From Amphibalanus amphitrite (taxonomy: Eukaryota > Arthropoda > Thecostraca > Balanomorpha > Balanidae): 64,000 nt of DNA. Positions 1-47,926 of this stretch are shown here, piece by piece (position 1 is the first letter of the stretch; each line of letters opens with the position of its first letter). The notes under the pieces are model-generated. The model was not told the DNA's origin and searched no databases. It saw only the letters and a program-made list of their open reading frames with translations. The stretch spans positions 1,089,001-1,153,000 of the forward strand of contig NW_024881522.1 of assembly GCF_019059575.1 (NCBI RefSeq). The letters run 5' to 3'. The position numbers and the translations under genes are program-made.

Positions 1-3000
1 GGTAGCTCGACAGCTCCGTCAGACAGGACCACTGCTCCCTCTGGCAGCTCGATCGCTCCGTGCTTTATCTCCACGCCCTCATCCGCTTCCCCACTCTCCT
101 CCGGCACCTCGGCAGCTTCCTCTATCACCTCCTCCATCTCTTCCTCCGTCTCTTCCTGCGACTGTTCATCCTCCTCCGGTTCCCCCTCCTCACCCTGGTC
201 CTCTGCGCCGGCAGTCAGCTGCTGCAGGCCGCTGGACTCGGCCACCAGACCGGAGAGGCTCTCCTTGAGCCGGCTGGCCAGCTCGGGCGGCAGCGCCAGC
301 ACGCGTCCGCCGTCCTCGGTCACCAGCTGGATCTGCTGCTGGCCGTCGTCCGTCTCGACCACCACGATTTCGGCACCGTCTCCAGCCAGCTCGGCGCCCG
401 ACCCATCCCCGGCCAGCAGGAGCAGCTGCGGAACAGCGGGGCGGCGCGGCGCGGCGTCAGACGGCGCGCCGGGAGGGTGACGGCACAGCAGGGAATGCCC
501 TGGACAGTGGTATTTTGGTTGAGGTTTGAGACCGCGTCAGCTACGACTGTTATTTTGCAGCGATTTGGTGGAATGATGACTTGATTAATTCCTAGCTCAA
601 CTGCAATGATGTCTATAAACGCTGGTGGGATGCTGAACTACCGAGTGTAACGACACTGCAGGATTTGCAAGAGTGTTGAGACTGTGTCTGCCTACAAATG
701 AATGCACTCAGCAAGTCTGAAAATCAACTCTTGCACTTATAGGGGGATGGGGTCAGAGTGATCCCCTTACGATTTTCGCGAATAACACGCGAACAAAGCG
801 GCCGATCGCCACGAAACCTTCAGTATCATAGAGTTAATTTTTATCATTCTATCATTAATTATTGTACACATGCCTTGAAAAATTCCATGACCCTAACTGA
901 AATGACCTTTGACTGTGACGTGTTTCCCAAAATAATGTCAGGCCGTAATCGCGATTCGGCGTAGGTCAGCGCACATTATCCGGGTGATTTCAGACTTTTG
1001 GGGATAAGAAACAAGCCAACACATGAAATTATGTTTCTGTCATGCATTATGGAAGGTGTCAAGGTTACCTAAGGGTCAGATCAGGGTCACTGACTTCTGG
1101 TGACATCGGGAGACTTCTTAGAGTATTACGAATTTAAGCCTTGCATGCGTACGGTGTTTGACAGCGGGGGCATTCCACGATAGATCGTACCACTTTTTTC
1201 CAATTTGACACCCTCATCTCTCGGAATTTGACGAGAATTGGTCTCAGGGGTAATCAGGGGCTCTGAATCCACCTGTAACAATTTCAGGCTTATCAGATAA
1301 GTATTTTTTGAGTTATGGTGTATAACATTTTTTGGATCTTGCTTTGCAGCGCTAAGTTTGGCGGGCTGTAACTCTAAGACGGATTATTCAAATGCCAAAT
1401 GTTATATAACATTGAACTGGCAATGAAACAGAGATTATTTATAATATGCATTTTTGAAATTTCAAAAAATACGCTATTTTTGATATATGACACATCGAGT
1501 TTTCTTACATTTGTATTTTTTGGACTTTGGGACCAAATTTTTTTTTTGAATTTATATTTCTTTAAAAAAATATTCGGCTCATTGTTAAGAAATATGCAAA
1601 AAATTAGGAAGGCGTTCTTTCTATAAATGTATTTATTTTACGTCACGATAACGGTTTCCAATAGTGATTTCGGGAGGGGAGCTTACAAATGGCGTGGTAA
1701 AGCTGCCTTATGACATCACGGGTTACTGAAATTTCAATTGAAGTCTGAGTCATCTGAAAAAAAGTGAAAAGAGGGTTCATCCAACCCTCTTTCTTATAAG
1801 CGCGAGGGTGAAAAAGGCTGTTTGGTTCTGACATTGTTTTGGACGCCAATGACCATAGCTGTCCGAGATGAAAGTTACAGGACGCATACATGGTGTCCTC
1901 CAGAGGTCTCACAACCTGTATATCTGGGAATTTTTTAAGGTTACATGAGGTCAGGTCGGTCACTTGACATCACTGTTATAAATCAATGGGGAAATATAAA
2001 AAAAACTGTTATTTTGGCGCCGAGAATGATCTAAAACTATCTCACGTACATGGTATCGTGATTTCATGCACTCCTTGCAAAGTCCAATGCTTCACTTTTG
2101 CATTGTTAACCTTGCGTGACGTCATTTATGACGTCATTAGGGTCGTACTAGTTTTTCGTCAATAACTCCCGATCAAATGGAGCTAGAGAGTCGGGATAGC
2201 CACCAATGGACTCGGGAAGACCTTCCGAATCGAATGATATGCCATATGATACCCTTTGCCCAGCTTCGTGACCTGAGGGGCTCTGACCTGACCTTGACCC
2301 GAGGTCAACTACTTAAGTTGACCTCACCCTAGCAAAAAGTATACCATTCGATGCACCTGAGCTAGGCGAACACAATGATGCCAAAATCGCGGCTCTGCGG
2401 CCATTTTTTGCGAAGTTATTTACTAAAAACCGAACCCGTAACTTCAGTCACTTGACCTGACCTCAGACGCTACCGGTTAACCTGAGACCTTAAAATAGGG
2501 TACCAATCGCTGCGACTTGTAACGGCACACACGCTCGTTTTTTCCGCGAGGCTCTAGCTCTATTAGAAGCGAAACTGCGTGCTGGGGTCGTATCAACCCC
2601 TCCGAAACCCATTTTGTTTGCGGGAAAATGAGGAACTTATAGAAAGAACACCTTTCTAATTTTTTGCATGTCGATTTGCAATGACATTTAGTTAATTTTG
2701 AAAACAAAATAAAAATGTGAAAAATTTTGGTCCCAAAAGTCATTAGAGGCAAATGAAAAAAATATTAAGGTTTTTTTCTCAACAACGAAATTTTTTCTTT
2801 CGAATCTTTAAAAAGTAATATTAATTTTTGATTCATCGCAAGCTTAGTGTTGTTTACTTTTTGTTGGTTGCTTAACCCGTTCTTGAGTTATAGGCCATCA
2901 AACTCACCGTTACAAACCGAAGTTAAAAAAATGTAATGCAATATAATTCAAAAAGTTTTGATCTGAGAAGTCTGATATTTTGCCAGGCGTCTTTGGGGCA

Positions 3001-4718
3001 TATGATTACCCCTAGGACCGACTTTCATTAAAATCTGAGAGATGAGGGTGACGGGCCTGGTACAATCTATCGTGGAATGCCCCAGCGTCTAACGTGTAGG
3101 GAGGGGGGGGAGGGGTCGGTTGGACCCCCTGCCGTTCGGTCCCTGATCAAAGTAAAACTTCGCGAAAAAACGAGTGTGTTGCCCGTGACGAGAGGAGGCC
3201 GATGATAGCCAATTTTAAGGTCCCAGGTCAATGGTTGACCTTCCAGGTCAGGTCAAAGACCCAAAAATCGGGAAAGTCGGGACCTGCTAGAACTTTGAAA
3301 AGTGGAGCGGTTATGTTTTTTTTTCAGGGTGCTGATCACATATTCCACGTTAGTTTTGATAACAGATGTTGTCTTCATTCATTTAGGCCAGGTCGGGTCA
3401 CTTCAGGTCAACCAGTAGGCGTCATACCGGCTATCGAACTACCATCCAACTAGTAGGTGACAACTACCACTGACGGCGCGAAACATGTTACGAAGGCACT
3501 AAAACTACTTCGTATTACTACTTCGTAAAACTACTTCGTATTACTTCGTATTACTTCGTATTATCGTAAAACTACTTCTCGTATTACTTCGTAATTGTTC
3601 AAATGGGTGCTAAATTCAAAATCAGCCCCAAACATTACCCAAGAAAACATGTAAAACTCGAAAAAGTGAACGAAGGTCATCGAAGGTCTATGACCTTGAC
3701 CTGACCTTCATGTGATCTTGACACCCACCGTAATGCATAGGACGAGCAGCATTTCACATGTTTGGACATTTACAATCACAAAAAGACTGACAACGCGCGG
3801 ATAATGTGAGCTGACATACGCTGAATCGCGATTTCGGCCGAACATGGTCTCGAGAAATAGGTCACATCACAGGTCAAAGGACATTTGGGTTAGGGTCATG
3901 AAATTTTCCGAGTAGGTGTAAAATTGATAAACTCGAGGATACTGAAGGTTTCATCGCGATCGTCCGCTTTTGCACGAATTATTCGCGAAAAACCGAGGGG
4001 GTCCATCCGACCCAACACCCCCCCCCCTCCACACATGCGAAGGTTAACCCGCGCCCCAATGAGGGTCCTGGATTTCCACGCCCTGCTGGGGTGGGGGGGG
4101 GGAAGTGTTTGAACACTCCCCCTTCTAACTCAACTCCTCGGCCACGCGTAGCGATACGCGGAAGGCGGCGTTCGAAAGAGCGCCAAAAATAATGACGAAA
4201 TCACTCTGGTCACTTTTTTGGTCAGGTCAAAGGTCAGGCCACCAGAGGTCATTGAAGGCAAAATTTCGCCGATTATCAGGTCGAATGTCGACAATTTCCA
4301 AGAGGCCAACGCATTACTCGGGAACCAATAGAGCTACAGCGCTGCGGAAACGCGCATTCGATAGCCCTAGTAACGCCTTTTCTGAGAAACTCAGATTTGA
4401 CCTTACGTCAACAGTTTTGCCTGCAGGGGGCAAAAACTGCCAATAACTGCAATAACATGCCCAGAGCCATCGGACGGCACCCCAGCTCATCGACCTAGAA
4501 CCACGCACGATCGATGTCGATCGTACTTTCCAGCATTCTGGGAGAGGAGACAGACAAATTGCCATTATTGTAAAAGATCATTAAACTGGCTTTTCATAGC
4601 AAAGATCTGGCCTGCATGCAGAAAATCAGTAATTGCTCACCTCCCCATTGTCAGTTGTAACAACCATGGGAGCATCTTCTGAAACCTGAAGAACACCTTC
4701 CAGTTTTGAGTCCTTCAT
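1..4718 (-). CDS. Acidic protein of unknown family, 5' part of gene (two coding exons, continues off the left edge)
   Basis: Two minus-strand exons fit together. The first coding exon is 4718-4641: ATG at 4718-4716, 26 codons starting MKDSKLEGVLQ, ending at a GTGAG donor. It is preceded by a TTTTTTTCAG acceptor, so 4756-4719 is 5' UTR and another untranslated exon lies upstream. The second exon is 425-1, begun by a CCGCAG acceptor, and is open to the window edge. Both junctions are phase 0. The second exon encodes a leucine start (LLLLAGDGSG), a stretch like IQLVTEDGGRVLALPPELA, and then a long Glu-rich run. Such acidic N-termini are common in transcription factors with later zinc fingers, but I see no DNA-binding domain here and assign no family. 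The 4.2 kb intron is filled with repeats. The codon bias of exon 425-1 is GC-rich, as in the other genes here. Confidence 0.6.
426..739. other. Intron sequence of the acidic-protein gene
   Basis: Left part of the intron. I see no gene, RNA or clear repeat here, only a pyrimidine-poor GC-rich stretch next to the acceptor. Confidence 0.4.
1167..3083 (-). mobile_element. Non-autonomous TIR element, 1.9 kb, copy 1 (4 bp TSD)
   Basis: The ends are GGGGCATTCCACGATAGATC and its inverted copy. The element is flanked by AGCG on both sides (1163-1166 and 3084-3087), a 4 bp target duplication. Past the perfect tip, the two halves continue as an imperfect inverted repeat for about 450 bp. The middle (about 1671-2607) is a separate GGTCA-rich module homologous to the element at 23081-24074. 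The whole is nearly identical to the reverse complement of 34007-35908. A 4 bp TSD is known for Sola, Chapaev and some other superfamilies; I cannot choose. No transposase is visible. Confidence 0.85.
3508..3592. repeat. Short tandem repeat, ACTTCGTATT-like unit
   Basis: About eight degenerate copies of a roughly 10 bp unit containing CTTCGTATTA or CTTCGTAAAA in a row. Confidence 0.6.
4048..4446 (+). mobile_element. Truncated copy of the TTAA-flanked element at 20591-21780
   Basis: It starts at TTAA (4044-4047) followed by CCCGCGCCC and matches the reverse complement of the right-hand third of the element at 20591-21780, up to the palindromic TGCAGGGGGCAAAAACTGC. The rest of the element is missing. 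It includes the GC hairpin around GTGTTTGAACAC and GGTCA repeats. Confidence 0.75.
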
Positions 4719-7572: not shown

Positions 7573-8010
7573 ACTACACAAATTTAGTCAAACAATGTGC
7601 CAATATGGAATTTTCAGGTTCAGTTGAATGAAATAGGAACAATGATAATTGTAGATTACGTATACCTGCAAGAGAGGAAAACAGAATACATTGTATTGCT
7701 TGTCCTTCACCGATACTGTTATTTTTCCATTTCTAGAAACACCGACATGGCGATGCAGGTGGTACTGCCTGGTGAGGCCGCGGTCTCCGGAATCGCCTGC
7801 AGACGAAGTCACCTGGCGTCCATCTGCACATCACTTGCAGCAGTGAGGCCTGCTGACAGCGTCTGGCAGTGTCGGCAACGTGCCAGCCAGCTATCTGGAG
7901 TCCTGCTCACCGCAGGTCGCCGACAGGAGGGGCGACGCATCGTCTCCGAGGTCGCCTCAGCAGCAGTGAGACCCCACTGGCCGTCTTCTTAGGCTTCAAC
8001 TAGATTGCGA
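7573..8010. other. No supported gene
   Basis: A GC-rich stretch (7740-7990) reads open but has no recognisable protein features or splice pattern, so I leave it unassigned. Confidence 0.35.
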
Positions 8011-8557
8011 ACAACCTATGCTGAGACAACGCCCATGACGTGTGATCCGGTACCGCTACCGCACTGCGTGCCTGTGCCCGCCGTGAGCCGCTAGTGCATG
8101 GGTTCGACCATGAGAATATGTGTTTATGTTGCTTTTACTATTGTTTATACGTTGAAGTGACGAATTGTTTATTTTTTGCAAGCCTCCGCTGTCCGGTTGC
8201 CTGCAGCTCCATGCAACGCCAGCTGTACTGTTGTTTTAATGTTGTCTCTCCGCTCAGCTGTACTGTTGCCTCTCCGCTCATAACAACCTATGCTGAGACA
8301 ACGCCCATGACGTGTGATCCGGTACCGCTACCGCACTGCGTGCCTGTGCCCGCCGTGAGCCGCTAGTGCATGGGTTCGACCATGAGAATATGTGTTTATG
8401 TTGCTTTTTATACTATTGTTTATACGTTGAAGTGACGAATTGTTTATTTTTCGCAAGCCTCCGCTGTCCGGTTGCCTGCAGCTCCATGCAACGCCAGCTG
8501 TACTGTTGTTTTAATGTTGTCTCTCCGCTCAGCTGTACTGTTGCCTCTCCGCTCATA
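8011..8557. repeat. Tandem duplication, 272 bp unit, two copies
   Basis: 8011-8282 and 8283-8557 are almost identical; the second has a three-base insertion in the T run after GTTTATGTTGCTTTT and a substitution (TTTTTTGCA to TTTTTCGCA). The high identity points to a recent duplication. I see no coding role. Confidence 0.9.
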
Positions 8558-10882: not shown

Positions 10883-15383
<4,501 letters not shown>

Positions 15384-18900: not shown

Positions 18901-21900
18901 CAATCATTAGAAAAACCTCATTTCTCATGATATCGAAGTCGCTTGTCCGACAGCGTTGCCGACCTCTGGATATCACCATTCATCGCTATGATTTAGGAGT
19001 GCCTTATTAAACGGGCGCACTCTTAGATTAATTTGCGTATGCTTTTTATTCGTTTCGGATACCCACCAGTTACCACATGTCTTGTTTTTACCTGATTCCG
19101 GCCACAATCTCCCAGGGCACGTTGAGCACGTTCACGTTGAAGAAGTGATCGACGGCCACCGGTCTACCGGCGGTGTCCCTCAGCCTCTGTACCAGGTCGG
19201 TCACCTCTCGCTGAACGATCCCCTCCAGCGTGGAGCGGCCCATGCCCAGGTCACGGAGGTGGTGCAGCGCGAACCGCCGCTGCCGCTGCCACGAGGCGCC
19301 GTCGTTGAACAGGATGCCTGTAAGAGAGCCGGCGGGAGTTACTGGGAGTGGATAGCGAGAGAGCTTATGGACGTGTGGAAGGTGGAACGGCATAGCTTGG
19401 GAAAACGGATATTTGATGTTAGTTTTTTTCGAGAATAGGATTTCTATGTATATTGCACGGAAGCGGTCATATGTTAATTTTATGCGCGTTACATCTTATA
19501 TTGTCTTTCATCTTACCTTATATAAAATATTAAAAGACCCTTTTTCATTCTTAGTTCTTACATCACCGAAATTGGCTGAAGCTGAGCATCTCAATTCTGA
19601 GTAATTCAGGAATAGTGTGTGACTCGAATCAGACGAGACCCATTACATCACACACTCACCTCTGAGCTCGCCGAATGTTCTCATTTTGAGAATCTCCAAA
19701 TGAGGCCGTCCGGTGCTCTCGTTTTTGGAGAGGATCTCTCGTGCGAGATCTGCGTCAAAGATCATCACCGCCGGCTGGTGGAACGTGAAGTAACCGACCA
19801 GCTGCAACAGAAAATAGAAATCGGCAAATCAGCACAGTCCAGTCATTTTGGCATTATCGTTTGATTCCTTCGGTTGATTTGTTAGTAACTGATGAAGCCG
19901 GTACAAACTACTGGGGAAAATATCCTGCAATGAGAAATGCTTCCAATCCGCATATTATGGGCCCCGACACTGGTGGCCCGACGCGTCACTCACTATCAAT
20001 GGCTTTCTACTGTATGTTAGCGTTACGTCTATGGGCTGTGTAATGTGCATAAAAAGCATAGACTTGCTTTATATTTCTTTCCGCAGCTCAAACTACTCCC
20101 TAGCGTGAGATGACTTTTGTATTCACTGCGGTATCAGGCATTAATGTGTCTGCCCGCTGCAGGACTAGTTCTTTCCATATTGTATGATCAGTAACCAACT
20201 TGTTGGCTGTTGCAGTGTGATAAATGACAATTCCAACTTAACTGTCCCAACTTAGTTACACCCGGATGTTGAGAATTTCCTCCTACCTTTCCGTATTGAC
20301 GAGCCATGGCGCAGTGACGAATAAACGGCGGTCCTCCGCCTCGGTGTGACTTCCACATTGTCCCGATCAAGGGAAGACGCAACGGTCCTGACGAATAAAC
20401 GGCAAAAAATATAAATGTGCTGTAAGGGCACTATTACTATGCACAATCGCATTTGTGAATATCAACATGTGAAGACCACGACAGCCGGCCTCCGCCGAGC
20501 CCGGGCCGCGCCAGCCGCCGAGCGCAGTTATCCGGTACAGTCTAACTTCAGGCGTCGACCACTGCTGCCATCTATCGGCAATAAAGTTAACCCGCGCCCT
20601 GCTGGGGGGGGGTGTTTGAACACCCCCCCTTGTGGTTTTTCGCGAATATCTCAAAAACGGCGGCGCGGAGCGCCGCCGTTTTTGGCACACCTTATCATAC
20701 ATCAATTCTACACATGTTGTGAAAATTTCAGACCAAGGTCATTCAAGGTCAGGTCACCAGGTCACTTGAAGTGACCTCACCTCATAAAAAGTTTCAATGT
20801 CTGTCATAGCTACACCGAGTGACCGATCGCTTTGAAACTTTCATCGATTGATAAGAGTAACAGTATCTATAAAATGTATATCTCGGAATTTTGATATCGG
20901 TGACCTAAGGTCAGGTCAATTTTGCGACCTCCCCATTATAAGTCAATGGGAGAAAATTGAAATGCGCCTCTTTTGGACGAAAGACATTATAAACACTCCC
21001 AAACACTGAATTACAAGTGGTTTAGACACACTGAACATGAAAATGGTGTCCGTGACCCTTGTTTATGCCCTGAGGTCATCTTAGGTCACGAATTGTATCT
21101 AACAGTTTTTCGCAAATAACTTTTGATAGAGGCGTGCTAGAGCGATGAAAACGCCTTAGCTGTGTTCAGCTCGACGATACGGATCGACTGATATGCAACA
21201 TGACCCTTTCCGGTCAGGTCATGACCTTGACCTGAGGTCAAATTTTCAAGTTGACCTTTCAAGGTCAAGTTATAGTTCATTCGATGCGTCTTGACGAGAG
21301 GAACACGATGCCGGTAAAAGTAAGCTCGTACAAGGCTTGGGTCAAAAGTTATTGCCAAAACACTGTTTCCAAAAAAATCAGCTATTTTTGCAGTTTTTGC
21401 CCCCTGCAGGCAAAACCGTTGACGTTAGGTCAAATCTGAGAGAATTACTCAGAAAGGGCGTTAATAGGGCTATCGAATGCGCTTTTCCGCGGCGCTGTAG
21501 CTCTATTGGTTCCCGAGTTATGCGTTGGCTTCTTGGAAATTTTCGATATTCGACCTGGAAATCGGCGAAATTTTGCCTTCAATGACCTCTGGTGACCTGA
21601 CCTTTGACCTGACCAAAAAATTGACCGAAGTGATTTCGTCATTATTTTTGACGCTCTTTCGAACGCCGCCTTCGGCGTATCGCTACGTGGCTCAGGAGCC
21701 GAGTTACAAGGGGGGGTGTTCAAACACCCCCCCCCCCCCCAGCAGGGCGTGGAAATCCAGGACCCCCAGCCGGGCGCGGGTTAACAGACGACAGGCGAAA
21801 GCTTGTGTGCAAAGGCGTAGAGCAAGCTAGTCTTGTAGTATGCATCAGAAATGTTGGGGGGGGAGGGGCAGAGGTCGACAGCTGTAAACTATTGAAGCAA

Positions 21901-22253
21901 TATTTTGGAATTGTAAGTTTCCGTCTACTCCACATAACAAATTCCGTCCCGCATCAAAAATCAACTTGTTTCGGCCCACTGCACTGCGTCGCTGGCAGAG
22001 ATATGGGGCAGTTCCTGCCTCCTGGCATGTTCCTGTTCTCTGGCTTAACCCCATAATCCGGGCCCCCGGGGCCTGACTCAACACCGTGTTGTACTGTACG
22101 TCAGCACGACCTGATCTGCCTGTGTCTGATATCTTTCAATTACCTTTCTGATCCTCACGGCAGCTCACCTGGCGGGTAGCTGGCCGGCTTTCTCGTGTTC
22201 TGGTACAGCCAGTGAAGGACGAGGAGAACCAGGGCGAACCAAATCAACTCCAT
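15935..22253 (-). CDS. Cytochrome P450, clan 2 (CYP2-like), 9 exons, one in-frame stop
   Basis: Exons from 5': 22253-22169, 20387-20287, 19801-19660, 19317-19092, 18836-18653, 17857-17755, 17481-17200, 16620-16465, 16140-15935; phases agree and total 495 codons, the normal P450 length. An ER-bound haem monooxygenase is expected. Order of landmarks: N-terminal membrane anchor (MELIWFALVLLVLHWLY), hinge PPGPLRLPLIG, C-helix WQRQRRFALHHLRDLG, I-helix FTASTGTNS, K-helix EVLR (ExxR), FRPERF, and haem loop FGVGKRVCMG with the ligand Cys. The clan 2 assignment rests on the WQRQRRF and LRDLGMG words. Oddities: codon TAA at 16577-16579 stands where the family has a residue (usually Trp) after VNL, with intact reading on both sides; the exon 6 donor is GC (ACAG|GCAAG); the I-helix lacks the usual acidic residue. 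So it is either a recently dead gene, an allele, or a sequence error. Confidence 0.9.
20591..21780. mobile_element. TTAA-flanked inverted-repeat element, GGTCA-rich, in P450 intron 1
   Basis: TTAA at 20587-20590 and 21781-21784 flank ends that begin CCCGCGCCC on both sides, as in piggyBac-type elements (TTAA target, CCC tips). Inside each end lies a GC hairpin around GTGTTTGAACAC, and at the left a second perfect hairpin (20653-20683). The interior has many AGGTCA/TGACCT words and an inverted-repeat layout meeting at TGCAG..CTGCA near 21390-21410. No transposase. Superfamily by TSD and tip only. Confidence 0.8.
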
Positions 22254-23080
22254 GACAGAGCTCTGGGAGGTGGGGGTACTGTGGAAGAAGCGGTGCTTAG
22301 CCTCAGGGCCTCCTTTTTAGAACAGGAGACTTTGAAAAGATGGGTTATTTGAAAGATGTAGTTGCTGTGAGATTACGCCACGTTTGTTCAAGTTACTTGA
22401 GAAGGTGAACGTTTAGTTCAGCTCAGCATCAGCTTCGTTTTATAATGTATAACGATTAACGATATGCGTTGCATAATGCATGTCTATATCAAATATATTT
22501 GCAACATCGATTATGTTGTCGGAGATGGAAACATTGTGGCATTCTCATTACTCACGGAACTGATTAATGCTCTCAGTTTGTAGAGGGGCAGGCGATACTC
22601 AGTTGATGTACTCTGGAGCGTTGCTGACCTGGCTACCAGAACCTCACCAGGCGACTGGCTAACCGCGGCCGAGCAACGGTCCTCTTACGTCTCGGAGTTC
22701 CGAGTGGAAACGTAGCGTCACCTTGTCATACCTGCCTTGTTGTCAGGCCCGACTATCTGATATGCGTTGCGATACTGCGAGAGACGCCTTGGAACACGTC
22801 ATTTTATACGTGATAGGCAGTGAGACACACCGGCTTTGTGACTATTTTTACTGCGCTGTGTGATCAGGAAGTGGCGAAATGTATGGTGGTGAGTGATGAC
22901 TCAGCATTGATTGCATTGATAGCAACACTTATAATTTATCGGTAATGTTTTGTAGCAGGTTATCGCTGTGTGCCTGTCACGTTACTCAACCGTCTTTATT
23001 TATCACTATTGTGTTAAACGTAATTTATTGTAGATGGGAAAGAAGGGGTAAAACCTAAAATGAAGTTTAATGTTTTCCCT
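22254..23080. other. Upstream region of the P450
   Basis: Presumed promoter region. I see no clear TATA box at the expected distance or known motif; sequence is otherwise unremarkable. Confidence 0.35.
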
Positions 23081-24074
23081 CGCCGGCCGAGGGAAGGGGG
23101 GGGGCGGGTGCCGCCCCCCTATAGTTTTTTTTTGGCGACAGCTCCAAACACGCTGGCGATAGAAAGCTGAAACTTGGCATACCTGACCTTTGATTCAAGC
23201 GGGATCTTTTGACACCAACAGCATTTTCGGGTCAGGTCAGGTCACTGACCTATGACGTCATAAGTGAACCTCTGCACGGTGTTCAGATATCGCAACTTCG
23301 CAACGCCCTCACTGCCAGAGGAGCTTTCACAGGGAAATGAAACTTGCATGATCTAGTATCCATTACGAGTCTCACAACTTGTATATCTCGGATTTTTACT
23401 AAATGACATATGAGGTCAGGTCATTTTCGTGACCTCACCATTATAAGTCAATGGGGAAAAACGAAGACTGCTTTTTTGACGCCGGTTACGGTCTCGAACT
23501 ATCCCAAGCACACAGAATCGTGATTTGATGCACTCCTTGCAAGGTTCGATGCTTCACTTTTGCAACGTTGACCTTGTATGACGTCATTTATAACGTCATT
23601 AAGGTCATACTAGTTTTTCGTCAATAACACCCGATCAAAATGAGTTAGCGAGTCGGGAAAGCCACCGATAGACTCAGGAAGACCTGCAAATTGAATGATA
23701 TGCGACATGATCCCCTTCGACCGATTTCGTGACCTGGAGGCGCTGACCTGACCCGCGACCCGTGGTCAATACCCTATGTAAGTTGACCTCACCCAAACAA
23801 AAAGTATATCATTCGATGCGACTGAGCGATACGATCACGATGCTGCCAAAATCGCGGCTCTGCGGCCTTTTTTGCGAAGTAATTCACCACAAACGGAACC
23901 GTGCCTTGGGGCACTTTACCTGACCTCAGAGATCACCGGTTGGCCTAGGACCTTAAAATCGGGTGTCAATCTATGCGTCTCGTAACGGCACACGCGCTCG
24001 TTTTTTTCCGCGACGCGCTAGCTCCACCAGGAGCGAAACGGCGGGGGGGGGTTCGTACCCCCCCTCGGTCGGCG
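23081..24074. mobile_element. GGTCA-rich inverted-repeat element, about 1 kb
   Basis: Ends CGCCGGCCGAGGG and CGCCGACCGAGGG (reverse complement of right end) are inverted. Just inside are two GC hairpins: 23100-23118 (GGGGGCGG, loop GTG, CCGCCCCC) and 24045-24064 (G7, loop TTCGTA, C7). The interior aligns with the middle module of 1167-3083 and 34007-35908 (shared ATAAGTCAATGGGGAAA, GCCGCAGAGCCGCGATTTTG on one strand). TSD not clear. Confidence 0.7.
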
Positions 24075-31400: not shown

Positions 31401-34400
31401 CGCTAACTCTCGGGGCGGTGACCCTTGCTGTCAGTCTGACAGGTCAGTCAGCTGACTGACCGGGGTCTGTCACGAATCTCCTCCTGCAAGGTCACTTGGA
31501 ACGGGTGGCCGGGCCAGGAGCGATCGCTCAGGAGAATTCTCGACCGGGACGTGCTCGGCGTACCAGAGAGGTGAGGTCACTGACGGACGCCGCCTGAAGA
31601 GCGGTGAACGGTGGACAGGGGGGGGGGGCGATGGACGGTGGACGGTGGGAGGTGAAGGTGGTGGACGGAAGCGGTGGACGGCGAGCGGTGGACGGGGGGG
31701 GGGCGATGGACGGTGGACGGTAAATGAACGGTGAATGGTTGGTGATGGGTGATGGGCAGCAGTTGGTAACTGGTGAGTGGTGAGAGACTTGGCTGGTGTA
31801 AGCATGAGATATCAATAAATATACAATGCATGCGTATGCAGAGAGGTATCGTGTAGGGTCTTGAGTCAACCTTCGTCTTTTGCTCTGCTCAAGTCTGGCC
31901 TCGACAGTGATACTGCTCGGAGTAGCGAGGGTAACGCACCCAAGCTCTTATAATTTACATAACCCATGCTCAATGCACGATTGAACACTCCCAGCCACAT
32001 ATACTCTAAAGTCACACGTTGCACAACATCCATGGCTAAATGTGGTCAGCACCAGAGCTCCACGCTCACACGTTCAAATCGGAGAAATAAAATTACGAGC
32101 CAGCGGAGCAGAAGATTGGCCCGTCCGCGCGCCTTGACTTGTGGTGTTGAGATCGGTTGCGCAACATCGCTCCAGGCCTTCACCCAAATAGTTGGGCGCC
32201 AACCGTGAGCTGTCAACTGAGGACCGTGAACGATCGGTGCCGCATTCCATGTAATTTTCGTTTGGTGTCAGAAAACGACACCGGGCGCGTACTCCGTCCA
32301 GGTTTTACTGTGGCCGCTCCGTCCACTCAATATACCCTGGCTCCGTCCCACTGCCTGGATCAAGTGCCGAAGTCCCAGAGGAGGTGAGAAAATTCACTTC
32401 AAACCGGGTACCTCCGGGTCCAACATCCCCAAGCGTGAAAGCTGGTCCGGGAAATTGATCCCGTGGATAAGTTTCGTGCTATTATCTTTATTCTTGACAT
32501 TAGTTACGCCTGATGAACACTTGATTCCAGATCCGGACACACAGTAAAAACCGGTCTTTGTTGTGTTTGGAGGACACCACTACTCGTCACAGAGCGACGA
32601 TAATCGATTGATTCTCACTTTCCATCCGTTATGCCGACCAAAAATAGTCTTTTGTGCGCGGGCGGCAGTCGGAGAATCATTCCTTACTATTTTGACCAAA
32701 AAAGGCCCGGCGCCCCGCCTGGACGCATTTGTTAGCTCTCTCGGGACGCCACAGGTTTGATTCATCATCTCTCGGGTCGGCTATCTATCGGTTTTCATCT
32801 CGCTCCATCACCTCCCATCCGACCCCCGCGGCCAGCCACCGGCTCTTCACCTCTTCTTCCTTCTGCGCCGTTTTTCGGCAGCAAAGAAGCGCGACAAACC
32901 AACCGGAGAGAGAGCGGAGTGATTTGGCACAAAAGCGGCGCAGCTTCGGCTCGGCCGTGTGCAGAGACAAGGGCGGCTCAAGGTGAGCCTATGACGTCAC
33001 AGGTCCCGTGACCGGTGGCCGGTCCGGCGGCGGTCCGAGCTTCGGTAGCGGACCGGCCGCCGTCCGTCCCGACAGGGTCCTGGTCCGCAGACCAGACGGA
33101 GAATTACAACACACTTTCTACTGGGTGGAGTTGGCCCCGAGCTTGTTTTAGCGTATCGTGGTTGAGAACATGTTAGAAACTAGGAAGTAAACAGCAGCAC
33201 AAGATTATTCAGCTTTGTGGTTTCTGAATAAGCAGGTTGTGAGTTTTATCAAATTAGGCACAATTTTGCAGCTTTCCCTCGCTCGGACGGCACCCGTTCT
33301 GCCCCTGGGGAGAGATTAGGAGGATGCTTGTTTCTCGAGCACAGGTCATGACCGCAATATAGGCTGCCCAGTCGGGGGCCACACAAGCCCTAGTTAGGGC
33401 CGCTCCAGCGTCTGCAAACGCTTAGAAAACCAAGATAAAGTCCCACTCGACACCTTCATGGTCAGCCCAGTATGTCATGCGTGTGTAACACGCTAAGGAT
33501 AGCGCGCCCCGTCCATTATCGAATCGCCTGTCAAGTAAACGTCAGGCTGCTAATGACCTATCTACGCCTCGTTGGTATGTCACGGGCTAAAAACTCTGCC
33601 ACGAGCACCGCCGCGACTCCGCCCCGGTAGTCATGGGATCATGATCGTCACATCGCGTCACCCGGGGTCGTCACGTCACGGCTCCCGGCAGAAGTCACGG
33701 TCACGGGGGCCAGCCGGCGTCACGGAGCTGCCTATCTGAGCCGCCGGCTCGGCACGGTGCCCGGGAGCCGAGACCGCATGCCTCAGGGCAACCGCAGGTC
33801 ATGGCCCGCCCGGAACGGCGCATCGCGACTCGCGCTACCACTGCGACTATCACAGAGTCGCGTCATAGGAGCGAGATCTTACACACTTCATGAGCTGCAT
33901 TCCAAGATACGGTATTTACAGCATTGGGCCCAGGTGCATAAAGATAGAACTCGAGTTGGAGACGAGCATTGGCGTAGTATTTACTGGAGAAACTTCTGTG
34001 ATCACTGGGGCATTCCACGATAGATCGTAACCAGGCCCGTCACCCTCATCTCTCAGATTTTGATGAAAATCGGTCCTAGAGGTAATCATAGGCTCCAAAG
34101 ACGCCTGGCAAAATATCAGACTTCTCAGATCAAAACTTTTTGAGTTATATTGCATAACATTTTTTAACTTCGGTATGTAACGGTGAGTTTGATGGCCTAT
34201 AACTCAAGAACGGGTTAAGCAACCAACAAAAAGTAAACAACACTAAGCTTGCGATGAATCAACAATTAATATTACTATTTAAAAATTCCAAAGAAAAAAT
34301 TTCATTGTTGAGCAAAAACCTTAATATTTTTTCATTTGCCTCTAATGACTTTTGGGACCAAAATTTTTCACATTTTTATTTTTTCAAAATAATCTTCATG

Positions 34401-37400
34401 TCATTGCAAATCGACATGCAAAAAATTAGAAAGGTGTTCTTTCTATAAGTTCCTCATTTTCCTCAAACAAAATGGGTTTCGGAGGGGTTGATACGACCCC
34501 AGCACGCCGTTTCGCTTCTAATAGAGCTAGAGCCTCGCAGAAAAAACGAGTGTGTGTGCCGTTACAAGTCGCAGCGATTGGTACCCGATTTTAAGGTCTC
34601 AGGTTAACCGGTAGCGTCTGAGGCCAGGTCACGTGACTGAAGTTACGGGTTCGGTTTTTAGTAAATAACTTCGCAAAAAATGGCCGCAGAGCCGCGATTT
34701 TGGCATCATTGTGTTCGCCTAGCTCAGGTGCATCGAATGGTATACTTTTTGCTAGGGTGAGGTCAACTTAAGTAGTTGACCTCGGGTCAAGGTCACGTCA
34801 GAGCCCCTCAGGTCACGAAGCTGGGCAAAGGGTATCATATGGCATATCATTCGATTCGGAAGGTCTTCCCGAGTCCATTGGTGGCTTTCCCGACTCTCTA
34901 GCTCCATTTGATCGGGAGTTATTGACGAAAAACTCGTACGACCCTAGTGACGTCATAAATGACGTCACGCAAGGTTAACAATGCAAAAGTAAAGCATTGG
35001 ACTTTGCAAGGAGTGCATGAAATCACGATACCATGTACGTGGGATAGTTTTAGATCATTCTCGGTGCCAAAATAACAGTTTTTATATTTCCCCATTGATT
35101 TATAACAGTGATGTCACGTGACCGACCTGACCTCATGTAACCTTGAAAAAATTCCCAGATATACAAGTTGTGAGACCTCTGGAGGACACCATGTATGCGT
35201 CCTGTAACTTTCATCTCGGACAGCTATGGTCATTGGCGTCCAAAACAATGTCAGAACCAAACAGCCTTTTTCACCCTCGCGCTTATAGGAAAGAGGGTTG
35301 AATGAACCCTCTTTCCACTTTTTTCAGATGACTCAGACTTGAATTGAAATTTCAGTAACCCGTGATGTCACTAGGCAGCTTTACCACGCCATTTGTAAGC
35401 TCCCCTCCTGAAATCACTATTCGAAACCGTTATCGTGACGTAAAATAAATACATTTATAGAAAGAACACCTTCCTAATTTTTTGCATACTTCTTAACAAC
35501 GAGCCAAATATTTTTTTAAAGAAATAAAAATTCAAAAAAAATTGGTCCCAAAGTCCAAAAAATACAAATGAAAGAAAACTCGATATGTCATATATCAAAA
35601 AAGCGTATTTTTCGAAATTTCAAAAATACATATTAATCTCTGTTTCATTGCAAGTTCAATGTTATATGTATAACATTTGGCATTTGAATAATCCGTCTTA
35701 GAGTTACAGCCCGCCAAACTTAGCGCTGCAAAGCAAGATCCAAAAAATGTTACACACCATAACTCAAAAAATACTTATCTGATAAGCCTGAAATTGTTAC
35801 AGGTGGATTCAGAGCCCCTGATTACCCCTGAGACCAATTCTCGTCAAATTTCGAGAGATGAGGGTGTCAAATTGGAAAAAAGTGGTACGATCTATCGTGG
35901 AATGCCCCCACTATCCGGAACGTTTGGGCCCTTATTGTCATTTTTAGATCAGGGCACCGACTGGTAGAGTGCCGCTTATGTCTGTGTCTATCAACGCCAC
36001 CGCAAGCTCTAGTGAACAGAAGCACCGTGCTTGTTTTTCCTCACTGATCGCACCGATGCCTGGCTGATCACATTTTCACGACAAATGAAATGCATAGATA
36101 CTCATGCTCGTTTGAAAGTATAAATGAAAGCTCATAGCGATTTCCTTATTATAGACATGCGACGCCAGGCGTCAATGTGTCATTCGTAATCAGCTATGAT
36201 ATCAGATAGATAATATCTAGGTTTTTATCGGCAACCACCCCAACAGCTTTCCCAAATATCGATGCTGTCATCAGATATGTGCAACTTTCCCGTTTGGATC
36301 GGTAATGCGCCGCGCGCACACAGCTATTAAGCTCCAAGTGCACAGCAAATACGCTCACTAATGGCCTCCCCAGTACGACCTGACCCCGGCCAGTTCTTAT
36401 TACCACCTGCCCCGCCCGTCGCCGACAGGGCCTTGGGTGTGGCCGCGCCAGGGAAAGCTCGAAATCGGGCACAAACAGCTTCTTATGGCACCGGCCCTGC
36501 GCGGCAGCGACTCGACTCTGGTTCTCCACGCTCGGCTGGCGCGGCCCCCGTCACGTGACCGGGCGGCGCGGCCAGGCGACAGGTCACGTGATCGGCTCGG
36601 ATCCGGCTGGGTTTTCTCTGTGGGTCAGCCTTGTCGCCAGCGCCGGTGCAGCCGGCCGGCCGGTCATGATTTCCAGCCGAGGTGAATGATCGACCTCGTC
36701 CGGGGGGGGGGGGGCAGACACCGCGCGTGCACCGACACTCGATTGTTGCGCGTGGCGCAGTTAAAGGGACCCTCCCACCTTAACATTAGTTTTGAGTTGA
36801 GATAGCCAAGTTTGCGGCCAGGCTCAGAAACCACCATTTATCCTGGTCACAACCCCCGCAGCTTTATGGTGTTCAAGAAATTTCTTCCCTTTACTTGCAG
36901 GGTGGGACCAGCGTGGTCCCTATCTCTTAACCATTACGGGAATCTGATGACGTCATCAGGCTTTCGAACGTCCGTTAAATGTTTGACTAAAACGTTTTGT
37001 AGCACGCGGTGGTATATGCTGCTTTGCGCGCAACAAATGCCGCACTTTCAAATAAAGTCGCTAGGAACAGCGGAGATCCCAAAAAGTAAACAAAAGTAAA
37101 AGTCTAATATCTTGAAAACCGGTGAATATTTTTCGATGAAATTTGGTAGATATTCGTTTTTGCTCTTTCTGAACCGAGCGACATCACTTTCATGCCAATT
37201 GATTAACTTTTTTGAAGGTGGGAGGGTCCCTTTAACGTGGCGAGTAATTTGGGTTGGCGTCGTGGTGCAGTGATTGAAATAAGGTTAAGAAGCTGTTAGG
37301 CATTCGTGAGATTGAGATGGGATGAAAAGACGGCAGATAAAACGGCGCAGGAGTGGCACAGAGATGTCGAAGAGACAGCTGAGCGACGCATGAGACGCGA

Positions 37401-40689: not shown

Positions 40690-43162
40690 TTCCGTCGCGC
40701 TTTCTCGGCGTGAACTCGTCGGCCTCCGACAGAACCGGTGTCGCCGGCGGGCGACCGCGGACGGCTCGGCGAGCAGGGGAGATACGGGTGCACAGGGGAG
40801 GCAGGGGGAGCGGAGACTCACCGGAGCTCACCTGGAGCTCACCAGGAGACACGGGAGACACGGGAGACCCGAGCGGCGCCGGCGCCCCGTCCCACGCGGC
40901 TTCTCACTGAGCGCCCGCCGTGGACCGTTCCTCGCCGGCCGGTATGTGTCCGCCACTGGCGCGGTGCACCCGAGCACGGTGAGGCTCCCGACTGGAACGG
41001 TGACCGCCGCCGCGGTGCACCGTGCCGGCGCCACACTGTGCTCGCAGCGGTGTTTGACGCTCGACCTTCTCCGCTCGGTCATGGTCTTCATCTCAGTCCA
41101 GATTGTTTGCTTGAGGTGGCTATTTACATGGTTAAAGAGCACTGGTGGGCTAATTGTGCAGGCTAAGACAATCTTACAGAAATTAAGCACCCGGTTCAAT
41201 GTAAGTTTGAGGGCAAGGGGACTGCTTTTTCCGAGATGCGCGAACGCGATGAGCCCAATGCTGGGAGACTGCCGTTTAGCATAGAACACTAACACCAAAT
41301 CGTAGCATGCTTGCCTACCTGCAATGCTTCTGCCTGCATTGCAGAATGCAGATGTTTCCTATGCAGCAAAGACCTTCGCTAGTTGTCCAGATTGAAAAAA
41401 CCCATCTTTCTACATAACTGTTCTTTGTTTCTTCGCGCTTGTGCTTCTAAAATGTTTTTGATTCGCTACGTCCAAGCAACAGCTAAATCAGATCCAAGGA
41501 AAACGCTCGTTTTCTTTTCGATTTAATTTTGAACGACCCAACTGCTAATACCAACATAGGCGGCGGAACGGGGGTGGCACCGGGGCACCGTGCCCACCTT
41601 TGATTTTGGCATTTTAACATTAGCCCTATGGGCGTTGCATGGAAAGAATGGGACCAAAAGTCGGCAGTGCCCCCCCCCCCCTTAATTGGAGGTGTTCCGC
41701 CGCTACTGAATACCAATTTGTTACCGACTACAGATCATTGCGGTCTCGACATCCTTTCCAACACTAAAGCATTGATCCACATATGTATTTCCTGTTACGG
41801 GTTTAATTACGCAACCGTTCAGCGCCGCTTACCACCTGAACCGACATTCACGCGCTGTTACCGACAAACAAACTATAATTTACAGAAACACTTCCCGCAT
41901 TCCGAGCGCGTCGCCAAGCCATATCTCCTCCGCCTGCTTTCTATCTAGCACCGGCCAGTCTCTGCGGCTGCGACCGCGGGCATCCGTTCTGGAGTCATCG
42001 GCCTCCATCACAGTCTGTTGTAACATTGGTGCGCTGTCAGCTGACGCCTGCGGGCCGCGCTGATCGCTGGTCGAACCGCACACGGACGGACAGCCGTACC
42101 GGCTGAGAGCGCCCGCCGCCGCCCCAGCCGCGGCTGGCGTCTTACAGCGAACAGTTGTTGGGAGGTGTAGGTATGCATTTGAGGATATCCTGTTATACAC
42201 ACCACGGAATCTTTCGGATGACCATCTCTTGATTACGTCTCAATGTAATTAACGTTACAAAAACAGACATAAGTCAGTATCGTCAGCATGAAGTAAATTA
42301 GTGACACCAGCAGCAATTATGTAATAACTACATAAGTAATCCGTGTTTTACCACATTATGAAAATGGCGAAGACAAATTCATAAAAAAACATCACCTAGA
42401 AATTGACGTTTACCGCTAAACGGTCTTACATCAGGTCTCCTTCATCTGCAGTCTGTTGTGTAAATGGCGGCCGGTGGCGGTTACACCGTTCACCTGGCAT
42501 CTCGCTGTCACCCAGGAGGTGCAGTAATCTCGACAGGATGCCAGTCTAGCCCCCCCCCTCCCCCGACCCTCAGGTGTCTCCCGGCACGGGGTGTGCTCAC
42601 TGACCGCCGCTGGCCTTGAGCGAATCGCCCACCGTCCACACCCACCGCGGAGAGCGATGATTTGGACACGCGAATGGCTAAACGACGACATCATCAAATT
42701 CTGCAAAGCTCAGCGCCGAAATGTTTATTTCATAGTCGATAACTGATTGCCAATTGTGGGAACTTTGGTTACGCCTGTCGTAAGCTTGTTGCATGCCGAA
42801 GTTTCAACGAACTTCAGCCTTGAGCTCGGGCATTATTTTTGGATAACATGCTTATAATCCTAATTAACTGCACAGCATAATTACCTATTAGCAAATCTTT
42901 AATATCGCTGTATAAATGAAAGCAGGCAAACTCTGATACGCTCATAATCTACTCCAATATCTATGACTACACCAGGGAGCTGGTTGTCATTATTCGACAT
43001 TATACAGTACTTTTATAAAGTATTATACCTATATATTATATTCATGCAAAGTAGAAGCATGCCATTGCCACTTGCGCTAACAAATCGTAGATATTTACGC
43101 CGGCAGGTAATGTTTTATGTTCAATAGCTTTTAAGCTTACTAACTGCGTGGCTTTTCTTAGC
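40690..43162. other. 5' region of the GRXCR-like gene
   Basis: CpG-rich at 40690-41050 and 41950-42150, probably 5' UTR or promoter sequence. No coding exon could be supported. Confidence 0.35.
41560..41702. mobile_element. Short MITE with poly-C tract (family with 7384-7572)
   Basis: Inverted ends around GGCGGCGGAAC and GCGGCGGAAC; the centre matches the 7384-7572 copy (TTTTAACATTA, CCTATGG, CGTTGCATGGAAAGAAT). Confidence 0.6.
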
Positions 43163-45051
43163 CTTCGCCCCAGGGGGGAGGGGGGCATATGTTACCACCC
43201 TGTCGCGTTTTTTGCGAGTGAATAAGAAACCACGGCGCGTAGCGCCGCACCGCTTGGAATAGCTTTCTGTGCATCAATTTTGGACAATGTGTGAAATTTT
43301 TGACCCCAGGTCATGTCAGGTCAGGTCACCAGGTCAAGTTAACTGGCCAAACCTAAAAAAGTTTGCAATAATGTCCAGCCTGCAGTGTTTGTCAGAGAGG
43401 TTTTAAAGTTGGTGGATTGCATGATGTTATGGGCGCCTATAATTTGTATGTCTCAGATTTTTTTATATCCGTGACCTAAGGTCAGGCCAGTGGCGTGAAC
43501 AATTATAAGTCAATGGAGAAAAATTAAAATGCCTCTAGATCCGTGTGTACGCATAGGAACAGTCCAAATATTTCAGAATCACAATGATTTGGACCACCCG
43601 TGACGACCAAGGTGTCTTTTATGCTGATAGCCTCTAGGAAGGTCATCCGAGGTCATTTGGGGCTACAAACATATTTTTGCCTATAACTCTCGATTGGTAA
43701 GAGATAGAACGCTGGGGATGGCCTCATTGTGTTTGTCTTGTTGAGACGCATCGACTGATATGCCATATGACCTTTTCCGGTCAGGTCATGGCCTTGCCCT
43801 GAGGTCAAATTTTCAATTTTAGTTCATTCGACGCGTCTCGGCGAGAGGAACACGATTCTGGCAATAGAAATGTCGTGGCTTTTTCTAGTAAAATGTTATT
43901 GTCGAAAAACACTTTTCGTTTAAAACAGATATTTTTGGAGTTTTTGCCCTCTGGAGGCTAAACCGTTGACCTGAGGTCAATTTTGATGATGACCTTATCA
44001 AAAGAAGAGTTCAAAAGCTATCGATTGCTTTTCCATGCGTTTTTCTAGCTATCAGAGTGGATAACGGCATGTTTCCTGAAAAATATAATGACTATTGGCA
44101 AATTTCGACCTTTGATGACCTCTGGGGTCCCCAATACCGCTCTAAGATGAGAAATGACTGGAATACTTTCAAACGTACGCATTGAGCGCTATCGACTGCC
44201 TTTTACCGCGTCTTTCTAGCCCTCTTAGTTTTTGAGAGGTGGGTGGTAGGGGAGAGCGGGGTCAAATGTAACACGGGGCATTTGTAACAGTGTTAATAGG
44301 TAATTCATAAACTTGCCAATAGAATGAGCCCTGATGTTAAGACCGAAAATGCGTAATTCTATGCTGCCTTTCCCAACGGAGTTTGAAGCGAAAGTGCCGG
44401 GTATGTCGATGGCTGTGCACAGTAGTCAAGGCGCGACGGGGACAATTGTAACATTTTTGCAGGGGTCAAATGTAACAGGTTATAGGTCAGTGGCCATTAT
44501 GTCAAAGTCGTCAAATTTTCAAGGTAGATGGAACATTGCTAGAATTAAGAGAACTGTAAGTTTTGTCGCAATCGGCAGCTTTTTACGCGATTTATTTGCG
44601 AAAAACTGAGGGAGAGGAGGTCCATCCAACCCCTGTATAAGTGCGAGGTTTTAAGCCTTTTTTCCTGAGAAGAGCCGTACCTACCAAGTCTGGGAGGATG
44701 AACAAGTGTTCAATACTTTTGTTAAATCACAGTTTTGGGAAAAATTGTGTTGCTGTAGCCTGTAAGTTAACATGTTACAATTGTCTCCGGGTGGTGTTAC
44801 TTTTAGTTTTGACCCCGTATCTGGGGTGAATTGTAACAGCTGAATTGACTTTTTCGGACAACAATTTTGACCCGAAAAAGCAGTTATTTCGGAAATGTTC
44901 CAACTGTATTTTTAAGACATAAGATCATAGTTTCTGAAAATAAAAGAAAGAGATTTATAACTGCAAACGTGTTTGCACCAGATGATAAAATGAAAAAATG
45001 TTACAATTGACCCCGTTCTCCCCTAACATATGCCCCCCCCCCATGGCGAAG
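43163..45051. mobile_element. GGTCA-rich inverted-repeat element hosting a TA-flanked insertion
   Basis: Ends CTTCGCC...GGGGGCATATGTTA are inverted at left and right. The interior shares the ATAAGTCAATGG motif, the GACCTAAGGTCAGG word and a CGGCGC-GTA-GCGCCG hairpin (43233-43247) with the 20591-21780 element. The right end is interrupted by the 44249-45023 element; removing it rejoins GGTGG-TA-ACATATGCCCC, which matches the left end. No transposase. Confidence 0.75.
44249..45023. mobile_element. TA-flanked element, GGGGAGAGCGGGGTC tips (775 bp)
   Basis: TA at 44247-44248 and 45024-45025 flank tips GGGGAGAGCGGGGTCAAATG and its inverted match GGGGAGAACGGGGTCAATTG. Internal copies of the tip words (GGGGTCAAATGTAACA, GGGGACAATTGTAACA) occur along the element. 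The TA duplication fits Tc1/mariner-type insertion. No transposase. Confidence 0.85.
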
Positions 45052-47926
45052 TTGGCTGAGATCGCCACTGGGGCGCGAGTTAAGAAGCCAAGCACATTTG
45101 AACTATTACCGGGGATGAGCTTAGCCTAAAGTTACATATTATACTCGGTGATCTGTGACGACAAATATTTAGGTATGCACTTATAAAGTGCTCGCATGTC
45201 TTCCGAGACTTCCCCGTTCCTTCAATAGGTCCAGCAGTAAAGAGTCGGCAATAGGCATAGCCATGAATTGAGCCGCAAGTGAGACGCTGGAGGTGATTGT
45301 TGGTATTGGCCACTTTAGAAAAGTGACGGCTAACGTGACGCCAACTCCTGCTCTATCATTTCGTTTTGACGTTTTCTCAGTCCCGACTGCGGAGCACTTT
45401 CACTTCCATGGGGCCTCAAAAGGAGAAGCTACGGAAGCAGCGAAAGCGACTCCGCAAAATCAGTGAAGCGAGCAAGGCTGGATTCGACGAAAATAAAATG
45501 AATACAAAATGAGACTAAACTGAGCTTGTGCAAGACCTTTCTGACATATACTTGTGCCCTTCTCCTATGGGCAGGGACTCTTCTTGGAATAATTGTGCCG
45601 GCGGCCCCGCATACGTTGTAGGTAATGACTTTATACTTTTTTAGAGGGTATTGTGGGATATACCTATGAACTTTCCTTAATTATTGAACCGAGTTAGATG
45701 GTTTTTATACAGGGTCTACCACTTAAAGCAATCGATGACCAAAATATTTTTCGATTTTAAGTAGGTAGGTATAGCGGCTTTCATAATGCATATAGTGCAG
45801 TTAAGCCTTAATAAAATGGCACGGTAACAGGTTAAAATGCTCTCAATGCTTGTTTTAAATGTAACGAGTCTCTGTAGGCATGTACCGACTACCTGTTATC
45901 AACAGGCTGACAAAGGACTGATATCCACCATCACTCCTTGGCGGGGAGGGCCGAGGGCAAACCAAACATTAGGAATTGATGAATGAAGAGCGATCGTTTT
46001 TCGCTTTCGTGAGATCCGTTGTAGGAGTGTATCTTTCTTGACTGATCTCATGCATTCTATCCCCATACCTCTCCCTCCATCCCCTTCTTTCTCTCTCCTC
46101 TCTCACTCCTTCCGTCCATCGGAGTCCGGAGAGCACCCGCGCCGTCTCGATCTCGGTGTCGGAGCGTTCCCCAGCTTCCCTGGCCGGCCGGCAGCCACTC
46201 CGCGCCGGTGGCCGGTCACGGTGCCCGGGTTTATGGGTCAAGCCAAGCCTGTAATTGTCTTGCGTCACGTTCGGTGCGCCGTCCGTCCGTCTCGGACAGC
46301 TCGCAGCGTCACGTGAGAAACGCTCCGCAGCTGGTCGCCGGATGAGATAAACGTGAGACCGTTTGTCAGCCGCGCCGTCCGCGAAACGGCGCCGTCTCGC
46401 TGACTCGATGAAGGAAATGCCGGATGCTGTGAAATGTGGAATTTAGTAAGCCCCCCCCCCCCACCCAGGTGGTTGGTGGAGAGAGAGTCCGCAGTATGAA
46501 CAGAACGGTGTGGTGGTGGTGAGAGCCCGGTTCGAACCGCTTTGGCGTTCACTATTTTGGCTTTTAGTTCCGATGCTTATGGTGTGTGCGGTCATCGACA
46601 GTTTAGCAATGGTCTCGTAGCAGAGAAGAGGCCAGTTTTACCAACAGAAAAGTCGCTGGCTGGTGGATTTTTTTTTTGCCTCAAGTTCCACGAATTTCTT
46701 CATCTAGGCGAAAAACTAACTACCGACGTGAACGATAATATCAATATCAGGCAGCATAAGTGATACCTATGATTTCACATCAGCGGTTACCTTTTTCAGC
46801 GCGATTGGTTGAACTTCAGGGAGACTTCTAAGAATGAAAATACCGACAGCCGGCTATTTTTTTTCTGCAAGTGAAACTGGCCTCAGGTTAAGTCGGTGAG
46901 AGGGATTGGCTGTGCCCTGGGACCTATACGTCTTCGACGAGTGCGACGGTCGAGGGCTCTGGGCTATGTCTCGTGTCTGTGCAAGTTTGGTAACAGTTGC
47001 GACGCCCTTGGGGTCGGAGAGGGTTCGTATAAGTCGCACCAGCTTCTCCTGCGTGGTTGAACACAGAACGCACCCTTCCTGGTATTAGCCTCTATGGTTC
47101 ATCAATCAGCGTGAATGAAGGTGACGCGATGTCTGTGGGGCGCACTTTCCCCTACAACCGGCACGGCGGTGACTGAGTGAGGGGCTCTTATACAGCCTCC
47201 TACGGGGATGTGGCAGCACTGGAGCAGAACCAGAGTAGAAGCGACCGAACTGACTAAGACGACGATAGTTATGATGCATTGTAAATTGTAATGTGTTGTG
47301 TACTGTACATTCAAGAGCGACCCACGCTAACTAATTGCGTAGGGATTGGGTACTGCTAAGTGCTAATTACCTAATTAGGCTGCAAGAAGTTTGTTGGCAG
47401 GAGATAGCGAGGATACCTACTATATCGGAGAACGCAGATCTTTTACAGTGGCTCGAAGCCTCGAAATGATATAAACTATAGGAGAGACCGTCACCGATGC
47501 CTGCATCCTCCAAGCATCACATACGTCCTGGGACGCGGCCTACGTCCTGGGATAAGGCAAATGACAATGCCCCAAGAAATGTGTGTAAGCTGCTCGGGGC
47601 AGCTCGATAGAGATAAGAAAACCAAACTGCACAGAAACGAATTTGTGGGAAATCATTTTTACTTTTGATAAATCTTTTACGTTTAAAGGAAGACATTTTT
47701 TTTCGGGATTGTGGCGTGGTATCAATAATTTAATTATAAATTTCATTTGTTGTATCAGAATTTATTATTTGCTAGTTCTGTCTTTCTACGAAATTGCGCT
47801 CATCAGACAATTATTGGCTCCTTCACTTTGATAATCGTTTGTTCTAAAAATCATTCAGAAAACAAATATTCAACTTGATACTATGGTTGCCAGGCGATTT
47901 GCGGGCAAATTTCTTAATAGCAGTCA

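Follow-up and report, generated by a model that had tools for sequence, protein, structure and literature searches.

Several related repeats lie within a 64,000-nucleotide stretch of the genome of Amphibalanus amphitrite (contig NW_024881522.1, positions 1,089,001 to 1,153,000), hereafter the window. Judged from their sequence, these repeats are best read as piggyBac-type miniature inverted-repeat transposable elements (MITEs) with subterminal palindromic repeats and a shared core like that of the coral CMITE elements. The elements here called A, A2 and E, and probably also O, are likely non-autonomous and moved by at least one piggyBac-superfamily transposase encoded elsewhere in the genome. 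An earlier, sequence-only reading had seen in them, and in the related families B and C, a superfamily with GC-rich palindromes near several ends that is probably transposase-related. This was right. The hairpin-recognition system that was suspected alongside becomes a testable case of piggyBac-type end recognition.

Ends, target sites and subterminal repeats

The elements were mapped by comparing the window with itself and by a profile of their shared core (Table 1). The target sites, the tips, the offsets of the subterminal repeats, the presence of identical repeats at the two ends of each of A and E, and the shared core are observed directly. Five of the seven tips abut TTAA (both of A, that of A2, and the right tips of O and E), the left tip of E abuts TTAG and the left tip of O abuts TCAA; a perfect TTAA pair is found only in A. 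A2 starts at the TTAA at 4044-4047, a site shared with O, which it bounds on the right. The termini of A form an 18-bp terminal inverted repeat, CCCGCGCCC(T/G)GCTGGGGG, with one mismatch. This repeat begins CCCG; the tips of E begin CCTT and CTCG (9 of 12 bases alike) and those of O begin CCTT and CTCT. The tips of all three elements thus open with pyrimidines, CC or CT.

Just inside the tips, A and E each carry a subterminal repeat that is the same at both ends of the element and different between the two elements, which are ~65% identical across positions 20593-21597 of A. The offsets are asymmetric: the repeat lies 16-39 bp from the left tip and 48-71 bp from the right tip of A, and 19-39 and 42-62 bp from those of E. 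The right-end offsets of E are given with element N removed and its flanks joined at TA, because N sits inserted within the right subterminal repeat of E; with N left out, this repeat equals the left one at 21 of 21 bases. N itself, which we take from its TA site to be a Tc1/mariner-type MITE, contains an O-like end piece (44470-44648). The right ends of both A and E hold an additional ~27 bp with a second, duplicated tip motif. When the two ends are compared, A is alike at 24 of 24 bases in the repeat and then at 10 of 30, and E at 21 of 21 and then at 5 of 30. Likeness that runs through the repeat and mostly stops after it is what would be expected if one protein must recognise both ends. 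In O, the subterminal repeat is weaker than that of A and the palindromes at its two ends are unlike: an imperfect G/C palindrome at 749-766 on the left, and a hairpin of different sequence at 3999-4013 on the right. Such unlike palindromes may represent the 'inner inverted repeat' class named in PMC12324416.

Membership of the TTAA elements in a different TTAA-specific superfamily, with only a resemblance to piggyBac, is quite unlikely. The Sola3 superfamily also duplicates TTAA. Several superfamilies share this duplication, including Kolobok, whose termini are described as 5'-RR...YY-3' in PMC9587614; the tips of A, E and O begin with CC or CT, which rules against Kolobok, and the asymmetric subterminal repeats match piggyBac.

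In the piggyBac-type mechanism proposed here, the transposase core would hold the ~13-18 bp tip at TTAA, while a dimer of the transposase C-terminal domain would bind and bend the subterminal palindrome in ordinary duplex form. The same repeat at unequal distances on the two ends of A and of E would allow two unlike ends to be synapsed. The repeat sequence would be family-specific because it follows the transposase of that family, and the dyad symmetry would be kept because the binding domain is dimeric, not because hairpins are extruded. The non-coding core of ~1 kb would have stayed alike across families while the ends changed. The transposase, its dimeric binding and the co-evolution of site and protein are what we infer. 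With the same asymmetric layout and different subterminal repeats, A and E offer a natural pair for the co-evolution of the C-terminal domain and its site.

Several observations weigh against this mechanism. The left sites of E and O are TTAG and TCAA rather than TTAA, and the fourth tip base of A is G, against the hallmark CC[C/T]T of piggyBac-type repeats (PMC2872659). The repeat of E is only a weak dyad, the left palindrome of O has only 4 G/C pairs before a bulge, and the palindrome of A2 (4099-4122) is kept with one broken pair. B has 4-bp target duplications other than TTAA in both of its copies (AGCG in copy 1, CACT in copy 2), and no convincing duplication was recognised, by eye, for C; therefore, not every family in the sequence-only reading fits. 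Coding remnants were considered as well: of the 18 element-overlapping open stretches of at least 90 codons, 10 were compared with Pfam and none of these scored above cut-off (best E 0.17), so that no transposase was seen among them. No match at Rfam gathering scores was found within the window. Exact-pattern scans of viral and prokaryote contig collections returned no copies of the elements, which says little, since such collections hold viral or prokaryote DNA.

Table 1. Elements and subterminal repeats mapped in the window (positions are those of the window; outer positions include the flanking target sites where these are recognised).
Feature	Positions	Strand	Remarks
Element A	20587..21784 (element 20591-21780)	+	TTAA each side (20587-20590, 21781-21784)
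A left subterminal palindrome	20606..20629	+	11-bp stem, 2-nt loop
A right subterminal palindrome	21710..21733	-	same sequence as the left one
Second hairpin of A	20652..20684	+	15-bp stem
Element A2 (second copy of A, right-hand part only)	4044..4443 (element 4048-4443)	+	~90% identical to A
Element E	43158..45083 (element 43162-45079)	+	TTAG left, TTAA right
E left subterminal repeat	43180..43200	+	GGGGGGCATATGTTACCACCC; weak, imperfect dyad
E right subterminal repeat, outer 15 of 21 bases	45024..45038	-	remaining 6 at 44241-44246, N between
Element N	44247..45025 (element 44249-45023)	+	TA each side; inverted ends GGGGAGARCGGGGTCAAWTGTAACA
Element O	724..4047 (728-1166 and 3088-4043)	+	TCAA left, TTAA right; interrupted by B
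Element B, copy 1	1163..3087 (element 1167-3083)	+	26-bp ends GGGGCATTCCACGATAGATCGTACCA; AGCG both sides
Element B, copy 2	34003..35912 (element 34007-35908)	-	95.7% identical to copy 1; CACT both sides
Element C	23081..24074	+	core between hairpins 23099-23119 and 24045-24064

Hairpins, chance and compensatory change

The six hairpins named in the sequence-only reading all exist as written (the sequence was read, and stems of at least 7 bp were scanned). The one named at 20611 is in fact the 11-bp palindrome of A, which is repeated at the other end of the element. The remaining stems measure 9 bp (23099-23119), 8 bp (24045-24064), 7 bp (1771-1789, or 10 with flanking bases), 5 bp (2584-2600) and 6 bp (3112-3128, a C-type hairpin in the interior of O). 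Their placement just inside the element end does not hold for B, whose hairpins lie ~480-600 bp inside the tips at 1167/3083 and 34007/35908. The second hairpin of A is reduced in E to pairing of its inner 6 bp.

The strength of the stems was judged in 11 end or edge regions of 75 bp, in which the longest stem (loops 2-9) was compared with 2000 dinucleotide shuffles each. Four regions were clear, with few shuffles reaching the observed stem: A left (0), A right (4), B at 1771 (1) and C left (9). C right was marginal (81), and six did not go beyond the shuffles, namely O left (157), O mid (362), A2 (700), B at 2584 (703), O right (707) and E left (1753). The longest stem of O left is another hairpin, TTCGCG..CGCGAA, rather than the G/C one, and at E left no stem exceeds 4 bp. 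In the window as a whole, GC-rich stems of at least 7 bp gave 15 rows against 7.6 (sd 3.3) in 10 simulations; only 6 of these rows, at 4 sites, fall in elements, which weighs against the hairpin observation. Whole-element folding, with 12 shuffles per stretch and seven control stretches, gave z of -13.5 for A and -6.9 for its interior without the end hairpins. The left part of E (-3.7), C (-3.5) and the right part of O (-3.4) lie just beyond the most extreme control (-3.3; the other six, 1.4 to -2.3), and the core of B (-2.3) does not. Thus, only A stands out.

Pairs of a G-run and a C-run (runs of at least 4, gap 2-14) are found in 10 rows in the 9.8 kb of elements and in 5 in the 54.2 kb outside; the 10 become 7 distinct sites after removal by hand of second copies and an overlapping row. 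With runs of at least 3, complementarity extends inward by at least 2 bases in 5 of 10 element sites against 5 of 65 outside (p 0.003), the 10 sites being 15 rows minus two second copies in B, A right and two overlapping rows. Without this thinning, the comparison is 7 of 15 against 5 of 65 (p 0.001). In all these counts the outside rows are unthinned, and the element borders were taken partly from the sequence-only reading. Outside the studied elements, several G-run/C-run pairs around TAAGATG or CATCTT-like cores occur at 58174-59331, perhaps another repeat family.

That the stems differ and yet stay complementary, through compensatory change under selection for the hairpin, was not borne out where the hairpins could be aligned. 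In an alignment of seven ends (B, B2, O mid, C right, O right, O left and an inner piece of E), 94.6% of stem cells are paired, against at most 70.7% when slid; there are no two-sided changes, and 284 of 500 shuffles pair equally well. Five ends of A and E have 72.7% paired cells, which 16 of 500 shuffles reach, and one two-sided change, in A2, which is reached by 104 of 500 shuffles, while a one-column slide gives three. With 5 and 7 sequences these tests have low power. Pairing tends to persist where it is present, and co-variation is without evidence at this power; covariation was rejected as a proof of structure.

Could the hairpins themselves nevertheless be selected, with the ends folding as single-stranded hairpins or cruciforms and being recognised in that form? 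The stems beyond shuffles (both ends of A, C left, B at 1771), the further inward complementarity at element sites, and the pairing in both alignments would agree with it, and such repeats could in theory form hairpins or cruciforms (PMC12324416). This is distinctly improbable, as two-sided changes are not in excess, both ends of E retain the repeat although no good stem is formed, and the terminal repeats and TTAA-type sites of A and E point to a double-strand cut-and-paste transposase. A palindromic subterminal repeat at similar asymmetric offsets fits the piggyBac-like reading better than hairpin recognition, and the proposed class of hairpin-recognising transposons found no support. In IS200/IS605 elements and Helitrons, a hairpin guides single-strand cutting. 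Neither group is known to have a terminal inverted repeat or a target duplication. Both were rejected as classes, since A has an inverted repeat with TTAA on both sides, and B has inverted ends with 4-bp duplications in two of two copies.

The palindromes might also be by-products without selection, if G-runs and C-runs at the ends, together with template-switch copying within a quasi-palindrome, make and repair the stems. G and C runs do form much of the stems, 6 of the 11 regions are not beyond shuffles at 5%, and copying from arm to arm would yield the single two-sided change seen in A2. Such copying does not account for A and E, in each of which the two ends carry an identical repeat, with little likeness just inside it, at piggyBac-like offsets; we regard this by-product reading as unlikely.

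The shared core and other features of the window

The claim of a shared core and of AGGTCA arrays across the families is confirmed. A profile of the core, built from A, E, C and the two copies of B, recovers all five along with A2 and parts of O. A, E, C and B all contain this AGGTCA-rich core of ~1 kb, and O contains parts of it, while the ends differ between families; the cores of A, B and E have an imperfect inverted repeat near the centre. AGGTCA or TGACCT occurs 81 times in the 9.8 kb of elements and 38 times in the other 54.2 kb (8.3 against 0.70 per kb, ~12-fold), in dense and often overlapping arrays at 20736-21605, 23184-23921, 43308-44116 and 3225-3871. The commonest arrangement of neighbouring half-sites is the overlapping AGGTCAGGTCA, with a 5-bp period (10 neighbour pairs). 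From A to E, 12 of 20 AGGTCA sites are kept, against 14% of all hexamers (about four times), and from E to A 12 of 15. The figures are 4 of 17 from A to C (7% of hexamers) and 2 of 14 from E to C (4%), with little or no clear excess from C to B (4 of 13) and from B to C (4 of 8; 21% of hexamers for both); in all these comparisons, repeated motifs may align by chance. That the half-sites serve as nuclear-receptor sites is a guess, and a literature search on MITEs with such sites gave no match.

Since B has duplications other than TTAA and C has none that was recognised, at least two kinds of element share the core. The right 700 bp of C are ~80% identical to the core of B, which in copy 1 spans 1660-2604 between inverted arms of ~475 bp and includes the hairpins at 1771-1789 and 2584-2600; the inverted arms of O are ~390 bp. 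The 26-bp ends of B include a dyad, ACGATAGATCGT. B may have arisen by insertion of a core element and later spread of the composite, as in the coral CMITE-IN (PMC2872659), or by an exchange of ends. No TTAA or other clear duplication was seen at the borders of the core in B, judged by eye only. A further idea, which seems rather improbable, is that the core is a parasitic module that has passed from one set of ends to another across unrelated types of transposon (piggyBac-like ends at TTAA in A, E and O; 475-bp arms and 4-bp duplications in B), with AGGTCA as host nuclear-receptor sites driving its success. The same core beneath two kinds of ends would open the exchange of modules between transposon types to genome-wide testing.

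Elsewhere in the window, Pfam matches above cut-off were obtained in five of nine tested stretches: cytochrome P450 (two), EMC6, PAXNEB and the clip-domain protease homologue Scarface (27.0 bits, cut-off 25). By these matches the DNA is eukaryotic, with an arthropod source probable. A unit of ~272 bp is tandemly duplicated at 8010-8557 (98.6% identical). Tandem arrays lie at 12026-12471 and 52699-53271, where long open frames follow the repeat unit and are probably not genes.

Comparison with known systems

The family is new and its kind is already known, as far as prior description could be checked in open-access literature. The closest likeness of A and E is to piggyBac (Ifp2) of Trichoplusia ni and to piggyBac-like elements that have subterminal or inner inverted repeats. 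Shared with these are the TTAA target, a short terminal repeat, and a palindromic subterminal repeat whose distance from the tip is small at one end and larger at the other, where an additional segment holds a duplicated motif (PMC7351741, PMC12324416). In piggyBac, some activities need no more than ends of 35 and 63 bp (LE35/RE63). The C-terminal domain, as a dimer, binds a palindromic-like repeat of 19 bp, and the right end contains both an inserted segment and a duplicated sequence (PMC7351741). The 19-bp repeats lie 3 and 31 nt inside tips of ~13 bp, and piggyBac-like elements have subterminal repeats that are identical or different at the two ends (PMC12324416). Unlike those of piggyBac, the repeats described here are rich in G/C runs, and the elements look non-coding, with no transposase seen. 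The palindromes of PiggyBat, which is related to piggyBac, are imperfect, unrelated in sequence and confined to one end, and the C-terminal domain that binds them has a different fold (PMC11707139). Differing palindromes between families are therefore already known.

The Pokey MITEs (mPok) of Daphnia, of ~750 bp, are similarly large piggyBac-type MITEs in an arthropod, and ~10% of Pokey/mPok insertions are at non-TTAA sites (PMC3849761). Unlike the elements here, they seem to have arisen by deletion from a known autonomous element. Words beginning with palindrom- and the word subterminal are absent from the main text of that paper.

For the core, the nearest parallel is CMITE and CMITE-IN of the coral Acropora, which are MITEs of piggyBac type whose ends differ while an inner region is shared; piggyBac-type terminal repeats are given in the same source as 12-19 bp starting CC[C/T]T (PMC2872659). 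In the elements here, too, the families seem to resemble one another more in their inner region than in their ends, A, E and O lie at TTAA-type sites, and there are composites made by insertion. CMITE is ~100 bp with an inner region of 75 bases, whereas the core here is ~1 kb and AGGTCA-rich, one version of it lies between ends with 4-bp non-TTAA duplications, and B and C show no TTAA.

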